Source: Candidatus Aegiribacteria sp. (GTDB lineage Bacteria > Fermentibacterota > Fermentibacteria > Fermentibacterales > JCC-6). Taken from it: 38,868 nt of DNA. Where the stretch lies: the NCBI GenBank assembly GCA_030594645.1, contig JAUVEU010000021.1, positions 1 through 38,868 on the forward strand, in the 5' to 3' direction. This document shows, one piece after another, positions 34,723 through 36,782 of the stretch. Each line of letters starts with the position of its first letter. Positions within the stretch are counted from its first letter, which is position 1. The notes below the pieces were generated by a model. The model was not told where the DNA came from and made no database searches. It saw only the letters and a program-made list of their open reading frames with translations. A program made the translations under genes and the position numbers.

Positions 34723-35685
34723 GTGAAGAAAATAGCCGTTCTGACAAGCGGGGGTGATTCTCCGGGGATGAACGCATGCATCAGGGCCACGGTAAGAAGA
34801 GCTCTTGACCGTGGCCTTTCTGTAACCGGCGTTCGAAAAGGCTATGAAGGGCTCATTGACGGGGATTTTTTTGAACTTGAATCGCAGGATGTCAGCAACA
34901 TCATTCAGCGCGGCGGAACAATTCTGCATTCCTCGCGGAGCGGGAGATTTCTGACCCCTGAAGGAAGATCTGCTGCGGCAGCCAATCTCAGGAATAACGG
35001 TATCGAAGGATTGGTAGTGATAGGAGGAGACGGCAGTTTCAGAGGGGCAGACAGGTTATCATTCGAGCATGGAATCACCGTGATCGGTGTTCCGGCAACC
35101 ATAGATAATGATCTCTGGGGAACTGATCTTACAATCGGATTCTGTACGGCTGTCAACACAGCTCTTGAGTCTATCGATAAAGTCAGGGATACAGCTGCTG
35201 CGCATGACAGGCTTTTCATTGTGGAAGTAATGGGAAGATCAGCCGGATTCATAGCTCTTGAGGTTGGAGTAGGATCAGGAGCTGAAGCCGTTTTGATCCC
35301 TGAAACCCCTACCGACCTTGAAGCGATAGTCAGGAAAGTCAAAAACAGAATATCCGCGGGACGAACTTCCAATATACTTGTTGTTGCCGAAGGCGATGAG
35401 GCTGGAAACGCCTTTGAGATAGCTGCGAAAATAGAGAAAATATCAGGTTTGAAAAGCAGAGTGACCGTTCTCGGTCATGTTCAGCGCGGCGGGTCACCAG
35501 CTTCGATAGACAGGGTACTTGCATCCAAACTTGGCTGGGCAGCTGTTGATGCTCTTGTTGACGGAGCAGTATCTTGCATGGTCGGAGAAATCGATGGAGA
35601 AATTGCCATAAATCCGCTGCCTGACGCATGGACAAAAAAGAAAAAACTCGATCCTATGCTGCTTGAACTTTCAGAAACTCTCTAA
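34723..35685 (+). CDS. pfkA: 6-phosphofructokinase, ATP type
   Basis: PFK phosphorylates fructose-6-phosphate at C1, the committed step of glycolysis. The 320-residue product has GGDGS (101-105) with Gly104, which marks the ATP-dependent rather than the pyrophosphate type. It also has the catalytic ATIDND (125-130, Asp128 and Asp130), MGR (170-172) and GHVQRGG. Length matches bacterial PfkA. It starts at GTG 34723 with no clear ribosome site. It lies 15 bases after rplQ on the same strand, so it may be co-transcribed with the ribosomal cluster, an unusual position. Confidence 0.95.
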   Translation: MKKIAVLTSGGDSPGMNACIRATVRRALDRGLSVTGVRKGYEGLIDGDFFELESQDVSNIIQRGGTILHSSRSGRFLTPEGRSAAAANLRNNGIEGLVVIGGDGSFRGADRLSFEHGITVIGVPATIDNDLWGTDLTIGFCTAVNTALESIDKVRDTAAAHDRLFIVEVMGRSAGFIALEVGVGSGAEAVLIPETPTDLEAIVRKVKNRISAGRTSNILVVAEGDEAGNAFEIAAKIEKISGLKSRVTVLGHVQRGGSPASIDRVLASKLGWAAVDALVDGAVSCMVGEIDGEIAINPLPDAWTKKKKLDPMLLELSETL

Positions 35686-35687
35686 TC

Positions 35688-35814
35688 TTTTGGGGCCTCT
35701 TTTGGGGCCGGGCCTAACAGCTAAACATTTTAGGCGCATCGCCTCATGGAGACATGCACGATCTGGTGCGTGTTCCCGTCTAAAAAATGTTTAGATGTTA
35801 GGCCCGGCCCCAAA
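35688..35814. repeat. Branched inverted-repeat element
   Basis: Bases 35701-35733 form a near-perfect inverted repeat with 35780-35814: 19 identical positions, one mismatch, 11 more, and a two-base length difference. Between the arms lie two smaller hairpins. One is GGCG/CGCC with a CAT loop (about 35733-35743). The other is ACATGCAC with GTGCGTGT and a six-base loop (about 35752-35773). The whole can fold as a three-way junction. TTTTGGGGCC occurs twice in a row at the left edge (35688-35697 and 35700-35709). It lies between the convergent pfkA and DUF6485-like genes and abuts the stop of the latter. It may be a MITE or REP-like element, or a two-way transcription stop. Confidence 0.85.
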
Positions 35815-36006
35815 TTATAGCTTTCCTCTTCTGTCACGTGCTAGGCATTCAAACGATCTGTCCCATGTTTTCTCAGCTTCTGGAGAGAACGCGCATGCAG
35901 TGAATTCACCCATCCGTCTGTGGTAGGCGATACATTCACGGCATTTTCCGTGTCTGGGACAACCGGGGTATGTACAGGGGCAATTTTCCGTTTTGCATTC
36001 ATTCAT
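35815..36006 (-). CDS. Small Cys-rich protein, DUF6485-like
   Basis: The 63-residue product has eight cysteines (4, 9, 11, 16, 22, 25, 38, 53) and the segment CRECIAYHRRMGEFTACAF, which I recognise as typical of the DUF6485 family of small cysteine-rich proteins. The function of the family is unknown to me; the spacing suggests metal binding. I chose ATG 36006 with AGGGAG 12 bases upstream; more upstream residues would not resemble the family. Its stop touches the inverted repeat at 35688-35814. It runs convergently to pfkA and divergently from the HAD gene. Confidence 0.8.
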   Translation of the reverse strand: MNECKTENCPCTYPGCPRHGKCRECIAYHRRMGEFTACAFSPEAEKTWDRSFECLARDRRGKL

Positions 36007-36110
36007 TGATGTGCTTATGCTCCCTTCAGTCCAGATTACATTGTAACTGATTGAAGAAACATCATGGATTAAGCAGTGCCTGTCACTATTTATTCTGGAA
36101 ATGGGATGAG

Positions 36111-36782
36111 ATGATAAAAGGTGTGATATTCGATCTTGATGGAACGCTCCTCGATACGCTTGATGATATTCACAATGTAGTGAACACAGTCCTTCAGCTG
36201 AATGACCTTCCAACAAAGACAATCCTGGAAATTAAAGCTGCTGTTGGCAAAGGAGTGGAAGAGCTTGTACTAAGACTGTTTCCCTCAGGCGAGCTTTCCA
36301 CTCAGAGGGTGTTTAAGGTTGCTTCCGACATCAGAGAAACTTTTCTTAAGCATGGAACAGTTCTGACAAAACCATACACCGGTGTTGAGGAGATGCTTGA
36401 TGCTCTTGCCCGCAGAGGTATCCCTCTGGCTGTTCTTACAAACAAACCTCAGGCATCAGCGGAGAAGGCAGTTTCCGTTTATCTCCCGGATGTTCCTTTC
36501 AGGACCGTTCAGGGAGTTACACCTGGTATGCCCATGAAACCCGAAGCGGAAATAGCTATGAAAGTCATTCTGAAACTCGGATCGGTTCCGGGAGAAACTC
36601 TTATGGTGGGAGACAGTGATGTTGATATGGATACAGCAAAAAATGCTGGCTTAATCGCTGTCGGCGTATCCTGGGGATTCAGATCTGTCGAGCTGCTGCT
36701 TGAGCATGGAGCGGATGTGATTGTAAATGATCCAAAGGAAATTTGCGGGTTAGTATTCCGGTCCAACCACAGCGCGAATTGA
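36111..36782 (+). CDS. HAD-family phosphatase, phosphoglycolate phosphatase-like
   Basis: The 223-residue product has all four HAD motifs: DLDGT with nucleophile Asp8 and Asp10, Thr110 in VLTNKP, Lys143 in KPEAE, and the acidic GDSDVDMD (167-174). The helical cap (about residues 15-85) is that of subfamily I phosphatases such as Gph. The best guess is 2-phosphoglycolate phosphatase, but related enzymes act on other sugar phosphates or pyrophosphate. I chose ATG 36111; the in-frame ATG at 36051 adds an unrelated tail. Its 3' end overlaps the convergent lipid-kinase gene by 33 bases. Confidence 0.88.
   Translation: MIKGVIFDLDGTLLDTLDDIHNVVNTVLQLNDLPTKTILEIKAAVGKGVEELVLRLFPSGELSTQRVFKVASDIRETFLKHGTVLTKPYTGVEEMLDALARRGIPLAVLTNKPQASAEKAVSVYLPDVPFRTVQGVTPGMPMKPEAEIAMKVILKLGSVPGETLMVGDSDVDMDTAKNAGLIAVGVSWGFRSVELLLEHGADVIVNDPKEICGLVFRSNHSAN

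Follow-up and report, generated by a model that had tools for sequence, protein, structure and literature searches.

The stretch of DNA analysed here (the window; 38,868 nt of a Candidatus Aegiribacteria genome) carries two genes that face one another, pfkA on the + strand, with its stop codon at 35683-35685, and a DUF6485-like gene on the - strand, with its stop codon at 35815-35817, and a palindrome occupies the convergent gap between them. The pfkA assignment is firm (cut-off 371 bits for the model listed below), and the DUF6485 match is sub-threshold (19.8 bits; Pfam cut-off 24); the longest open reading frame of the latter gene starts at 36222. The features are as follows.

34723-35685, + strand: pfkA, the upstream facing gene (394.6 bits to TIGR02482)
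35686-35709, no strand: tandem 12-nt edge repeat, TCTTTTGGGGCC twice, the second GGGGCC being the start of the left arm (read in the sequence)
35701-35731, + strand: left arm, with the 27-nt family core at 35704-35730 carrying one mismatch to the family pattern (complementarity, family pattern)
35732-35744, no strand: small inner hairpin AGGCG-CAT-CGCCT (sequence, RNA fold)
35748-35777, no strand: inner palindrome B, a divergent copy of the GGGGACAYGCAC-type palindrome that reads GGAGACATGCAC..GTGCGTGTTCCC at this site
35784-35814, - strand: right arm, with an exact 27-nt family core at 35785-35811 (complementarity, family pattern)
35815-36054, - strand: DUF6485-like facing gene, 79 aa from the start used (below the Pfam cut-off)

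The initial annotation had described a palindrome of roughly 115 bp with a tandem at its left edge and two inner hairpins, lying in a convergent gap and touching a stop codon, and this observation is confirmed in substance. The palindrome measures 114 bp (35701-35814), its edge tandem is a perfect 12-nt repeat, and it abuts the stop codon of the DUF6485-like gene with zero bases between. The arms are indeed long, although the lengths of 33 and 35 bases first given were slightly generous: we measure 31 nt each, 97% complementary and 52 nt apart. The predicted RNA fold reaches -75 kcal/mol, whereas 200 shuffles average -38.64 and none is as good (z -10.63), with both inner hairpins placed within the long stem and the larger at about 35746-35779; folded as DNA, the palindrome gives a z of -8.94. 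A structured RNA, which had been among the suggestions, finds no backing, since the palindrome has no Rfam match at gathering score (five tRNAs are the only such matches in the whole window) and the loops differ between family copies whilst the stem is kept; the loose Rfam matches at the palindrome, to models of microRNAs and sRNAs, fall far short of the respective cut-offs.

A search with the arm, which the annotation had proposed as a check, was made in the genome of origin (G000; 3.07 Mb in 158 contigs, incomplete) and in related genomes. The arm is neither unique nor absent from relatives: the 27-nt pattern, at up to 3 mismatches, occurs at 23 places in G000 (reversed-pattern control, 0), and arms are present in 16 of the 19 genomes of the genus (controls 0). 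A 141-bp segment gave 56 matches in G000 at E <= 10, many of which come from a palindrome matched on both its strands, from partial copies or from an inner hairpin; at E <= 0.001 in 60 genomes it matched its own genome and 15 of 18 genus-mates, and none of the 41 genomes outside the genus. The exact arm was likewise found in 24 stretches of a species-genome collection, all of them in Candidatus Aegiribacteria or Candidatus Fermentibacteria records. Within G000 the arms form seven two-armed short palindromes (C5, C24, C46, C49, C50, C61 and C94) and one long pair (C99); C10 and C81 each have one good arm, and a further five arms stand alone (C5:102167, C21, C37, C131 and C146). We rejected a phage or plasmid origin, as phage and plasmid records held no match to the element and viral contigs no exact arm.

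The long pair on C99 encloses a single gene (C99:28910-29947) whose stop codon lies inside an arm. Its product scores 85.1 bits against the NCBIfam REP-associated tyrosine transposase (RAYT) model, passing the cut-off of 80, and 45.8 bits against Y1_Tnp, and it contains NHYHLL and CRYIVLNP, which would correspond to the HUH motif and the catalytic tyrosine of the family. Eight orthologues of this gene were found, at 71-100% identity, and arms flank all eight, with one arm cut by a contig end; by eye, the same two neighbours flank the RAYT gene in G000 and at L087 (the arm positions of G008:C8). In a tree of RAYT proteins the repeat types track clades, that with the arms of the palindrome having a support of 93/94 and other clades being flanked by different repeats, with several deeper branches weak and five end branches flagged as long. 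The nine Y1 genes of G000 have distinct terminal repeats, and the inverted repeat flanking each exceeds the maximum of 20 shuffles, as it does for 33 of the 36 distinct Y1 genes across all loci; one further Y1 locus gave no open frame and is outside the 36.

Sequence variants of the arms agree with the transposase flanks of the same genome. A GGTGCC variant is found in 17 of 17 arms of G018 and in its transposase flank, and a CCGGACC variant in 14 of 20 arms of G002, where the transposase locus agrees, against 0 of 23 in G000, these counts including the arms at the transposase itself. Among the ten genomes that are at least 90% complete, the four with a RAYT orthologue have 17, 22, 23 and 25 arms, and the six in which none was found have 0, 0, 0, 3, 4 and 4, although the genomes are related and so do not constitute independent trials. 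Counting against the link, G003, G004 and G007 (80, 67 and 79% complete) have 14, 15 and 12 arms and no detected orthologue; G014 has 7 arms and a RAYT fragment at a contig end (84% identity over 63 residues).

Nine RAYT-type genes occur in the 3-Mb G000 (on C6, C77, C88, C94, C99, C103, C104, C118 and C150). The repeat that flanks the one on C103 constitutes a second terminal-inverted-repeat (TIR) family in the window, with two direct copies of AGGGTCAGGTCTTGCAT on the - strand at 47-63 and 117-133. At a separate locus (L015; G000:C131:1-1095) two directly oriented arms of the focal family enclose an Xre/MbcA/ParS antitoxin gene and a RES-domain gene, the contig starting inside the first arm.

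Elements of this kind are already known. TIRtrons, or TIRYTs, reported in 2013, are described in the available part of that account as a RAYT-like gene within long terminal inverted repeats, some of which are dispersed, moderately abundant and also found as dimers; a GGGGWSAS motif is there given for some TIRs and is not required (PMC3733652). The family described here is alike in having a RAYT-like Y1 gene flanked by long TIRs, unlike GTAG REPs, and in the dispersal of its TIR as single, dimeric or grouped copies; it differs in belonging to a new phylum and in an outer arm that starts GGGGCCGG, outside GGGGWSAS, which the start of inner palindrome B (GGGGACAC/T) does fit. The TIRtron arrangement of Di Nocera et al. 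(2013) was later linked, in the portion of the source available, to tnpAREP subclass 2.1, which resembles the present case in its Y1 protein, C-terminal helix-turn-helix and flanking TIRs in place of REPs (PMC6006769); in the C99 protein the C-terminal helix-turn-helix match scores 21.3 bits, short of the 23 that Pfam requires. As far as the accessible text of PMC8049555 describes REPINs and their RAYTs, the likeness extends to a non-autonomous inverted pair with a variable spacer, and to a single, vertically kept transposase gene with more copies where the gene is present. Against this, each half of a GTAG-type REPIN is a REP, a short hairpin with a GTAG-type tetranucleotide, but GTAG is missing from the focal 27-nt arm, which by eye also lacks an internal hairpin, the palindrome forming between arms only. 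In Anabaena variabilis and Halothiobacillus neapolitanus one palindrome family is, as here, nested in another, but the outer palindrome of the present element is the RAYT's own repeat and occurs also when the inner one is missing. The REP dimers of those two organisms, Anabaena variabilis and Halothiobacillus neapolitanus, are placed within longer palindromes in the part of the source available (PMC3733652).

Comparison of 41 paired elements, listed from selected loci and including a few that overlap, shows the simplest form to be a bare dimer of 72-79 bp with a loop of 18-25 nt (in G002, G004, G010, G011, G013 and G015). Palindrome B lies inside many loops of G000, G017, G014, G004 and G007; it is also found alone, just as the outer palindrome is found lacking B. 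Several B-bearing copies have, by eye, a common sequence on both sides of B, which suggests that outer arm, B and outer arm were copied as one unit. None of the flanking repeats found at Y1 genes, including all nine of G000, is B, and one dimer in G002 encloses the whole dimer of another transposase's repeat (GGGGTCGTATC). Summed over 60 distinct elements, some of them nested, the two arms of an element differ at 124 positions, whereas 5000 shuffles averaged 199 and never fell below 167, a likeness to which shared descent within genomes contributes.

The history of the focal gap was followed by retrieving the orthologous locus, through the DUF6485-like protein, from 18 of the 19 genomes (none in G012). 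Thirteen were readable, G002, G003, G007 and G008 being left out for their other neighbours and G013 because its contig ends after 2 nt; the loci of weak paralogues of the DUF6485-like gene (L118-L129) lie outside the analysed set. A TIR-type element stands within 150 nt of the stop codon in 12 of the 13, drawn from about five families, and random stretches of the same size from these loci gave TIR-type matches in 11 of 576; G000 prompted the search of this gap and is therefore not independent evidence there. The palindrome's own family is present in G000, G017, G004, G018 and G011, the element of G018 being cut by a contig end, with the contig that carries its pfkA beginning at the matching arm. 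The remaining types are GGGTCAAACC in G014, which mismatches at 3 of 19 positions and also matches two sister families more weakly; GGGTCGGACATAACA in G010, without mismatch; TTAGC in G016, G015 (2 mismatches) and G009 (5 mismatches, weak); and ATGTCCC in G001 and G006, the latter having no mismatch to a probe made from the repeat of its own transposase. Half-elements are found in G004, G014 and G010, and the long stem cannot form from those of G014 and G004. The gap of G005 has no element and no visible terminator, and no RAYT was found in that genome at E <= 1e-20. Across all 18 loci, 12 repeat patterns gave 19 matches in the 3,249 bp after the stop codon and 8 in the remaining 48,705 bp; their reversed forms gave one match after the stop and one elsewhere.

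At the G010 locus (L107; G010:C76) the DUF6485-like gene is followed, by eye, by the GGGTCGGACATAACA repeat, a fragment only of pfkA, and then unrelated coding sequence; an insertion into the 3' end of pfkA is possible.

Elsewhere, 12 groups of elements have both flanks in common between genomes, with best flank identities of about 70-98% (14 groups were listed, two being dropped as one locus paired with itself). In several of them the arms have changed together whilst the loops are unalignable (for example L005/L041/L042 and L002/L181). Sites thus persist while their contents turn over, for which repeated insertion, exchange between copies or selection for pairing are possible causes. Among the flank comparisons listed, none pairs a clean empty site with a target duplication, and at C5:45416 no empty site is readable because the downstream DNA differs between G000 and G017, G014 and G004. 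One element has flanks that are 98% identical between two genomes (L090, position 3862; L203, position 1448) whose other shared sites are far more diverged, indicating either a recent transfer or a binning error.

The left-edge tandem of the focal palindrome proves to be a recurrent scar, as a tandem of flanking bases and the terminal GGGGCC (unit 8-16 nt) is found at 16 of 107 edges in 55 elements, where shuffled flanks predict 0.25. Twelve edges have an exact GGGGCC beyond them in the same orientation, against an expectation of 0.5; no edge has GGCCCC beyond it. The positions next to the arms favour N-A-T-T-T (A in 53%, followed by T in 49, 57 and 49%), and T-rich octamers are commoner beside arms (18/107) than further out (27/428), orthologous copies being counted more than once in all these edge counts. 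Slippage beside the hairpin or repeated cutting beside GGGGCC are possible causes. The scar can expand: the left edge of the element at L191 (G017:C128, ~1-200) carries a 13-nt unit, ending GGGGGCC, that is repeated in tandem about four times.

REPs are mostly located between convergent or unidirectional genes, near 3' ends, in the part of the literature source available (PMC3733652). We took a census of gaps across 439 kb of G000 (a 400-kb sample together with the window), with a minimum gap length of 30 nt, the focal gap being classed as convergent by hand since the gene caller had missed the DUF6485-like gene. Of the 22 convergent gaps 6 have a match to a TIR or to B, as do 9 of the 139 co-directional and 1 of the 38 divergent ones (convergent against all others, 6/22 against 10/177, p 0.0035), the focal gap being one of the six. 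The difference persists when repeats beside transposase genes are removed (6/22 against 7/177, p 0.001) and when B is removed (4/22 against 6/177, p 0.015). Copies thus seem to favour the ends of two facing genes, sometimes at the position of the ordinary terminator in relatives. One such position is at C61:13654, where a semialdehyde dehydrogenase gene faces a gene with weak zinc-ribbon matches. Of 17 loci read, 12 have a GC-rich hairpin (GAGGCTGCC..GGCAGCCT) with a T-rich flank, judged by eye and unscored; the facing gene lies within 154 nt in nine of these, further off in G009 and G015, and was not found in G010. The focal family's palindrome stands in G000, G004 and G007 where the others have this terminator-like hairpin, G017 has a short GGGGCCGGGC..GACCCGGCCCC hairpin resembling a shrunken copy, and G005 has neither. 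Other orthologous gaps, some of whose loci are paralogues, were seldom invaded: a TIR dimer occurs in 1 of 19 loci at a gap that, by eye, keeps a GGGGACA..TGTCCC-like hairpin in ten; at another gap 19 of 20 loci keep, by eye, a terminator-like hairpin rich in GC, and 0 of 20 have TIR matches; and where G000 holds a family element, 2 of 11 orthologous loci do so.

At the convergent gap orthologous to G000:C94:26300-26347 (L220-L231) a GGGGACA..TGTCCC-like hairpin that resembles B is, by eye, kept in ten loci, with variation in loop and stem.

Taken together, these comparisons argue that the palindrome is very probably a RAYT-linked TIR dimer, a non-autonomous element of the TIRYT kind, since its arms recur across genome and genus and flank the RAYT gene in every orthologue. 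Judged by sequence, the arms are the transposase's own terminal repeats, the family is dispersed, the variants agree, and copies occupy orthologous places in related species. The suggestion of a MITE- or REP-type repeat in the initial annotation is thereby upheld and made specific, and its interpretation overall is partly supported. A bidirectional terminator, also suggested there, is a possible role: the enrichment in convergent gaps and the replacement of the terminator-like hairpin at C61:13654 speak for it, the missing T run beyond the stem against it.

The same RAYT-linked element may be functionless, with copies that decay in convergent gaps simply because insertion is least harmful there or the enzyme has its target there; we consider this reading to have only slightly less than an even chance. 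It is consistent with the unalignable loops at several orthologous sites, with the half-elements of G014 and G004 and the empty gap of G005, and with the rarity of invasion at other convergent gaps, but is less readily reconciled with the persistence of the 12 site groups, in which the arms often changed alike, or with the missing terminator-like hairpin wherever the element stands at C61:13654.

It is improbable that the palindrome is a MITE of a DDE-type insertion sequence that captured the RAYT gene at C99. Long perfect terminal repeats would suit such an origin, and the RAYT is a candidate for the moving enzyme from sequence, but arms surround all eight RAYT orthologues and different repeats surround other RAYT clades, no target duplications are visible by eye at the 41 listed elements, and the arm matches of G000 leave no long pair besides that at C99. 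An ordinary bidirectional intrinsic terminator, native to the focal gap and merely resembling the repeats, would accord with a strong hairpin in a convergent gap but is very improbable, being contradicted by the identity of the arms to dispersed copies and RAYT flanks, by the different sequence families that relatives have in the gap, and by the bases beyond the stem, which make up a T run on neither strand (AAATTATAGC on +, AAAAGAGGCC on -). A terminator scan called nothing in the palindrome, but covers only loops of 3-8 nt, so that the whole palindrome is beyond its reach; given the lack of a T run, the palindrome, if it acts, is no textbook terminator.

The arm also holds GCCTAAC/GTTAGGC, which resembles the attC consensus. 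An attC site is, however, an imperfect palindrome with extrahelical bases, found in cassette arrays; we rejected an integron attC, as the arms are mostly perfectly complementary and the copies are scattered.

We favour, with a probability of roughly three in four once its movement in trans and a role at 3' ends are included, a mobile element that is non-autonomous and forms a hairpin, made up of two inverted copies of the 27-nt terminal repeat of the C99 RAYT/TIRYT gene around a B-bearing loop. A transposase gene kept for a long time at another place in the genome appears to have spread the family. By analogy with HUH enzymes of the IS200/IS605 type, the RAYT would recognise the arms and move or rewrite the dimers in trans as single-stranded DNA, and these would settle next to the stop codons of facing genes; none of the genomes compared shows a copy in movement. 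The hairpin may end or protect transcripts there, in which case a site that has lost its terminator would keep some element. We suggest tentatively, at somewhat less than even odds, that the focal hairpin persists for its use to both facing genes, whose transcripts it would terminate or protect at their 3' ends, with the family that supplies it varying by lineage. Against this role stand the missing T run, the survival of G005 with neither element nor visible terminator in the gap, and the half-elements of G014 and G004. The relatedness of the genomes means that counts across the genus are not independent.

In the literature searched, which included few subscription journals, we found no report of these repeats in this phylum, nor of family exchange at one orthologous gap, of repeats standing in for a terminator, or of edge scars. 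The reason for the long retention of RAYT genes and their palindromes in bacteria is an open question, and according to the part of the source available there is currently little evidence as to what the host gains from them (PMC8049555). The present genus has up to nine RAYT genes per genome, whose repeats replace one another at one orthologous gap. Because the repeats are swapped at one gap, and one stands in the place of a terminator-like hairpin, the idea of a 3'-end device is directly testable. Extended to several resident families, it would have them supply interchangeable 3'-end hairpins to facing genes, with copies delivered to or exchanged at fixed convergent sites, where they could supplant ordinary terminators, site and stem being kept and family, loop and sequence turning over. 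We regard this general form as doubtful, but if it is true, interchangeable 3'-end hairpins would be a host benefit that accounts for the retention of RAYT genes.
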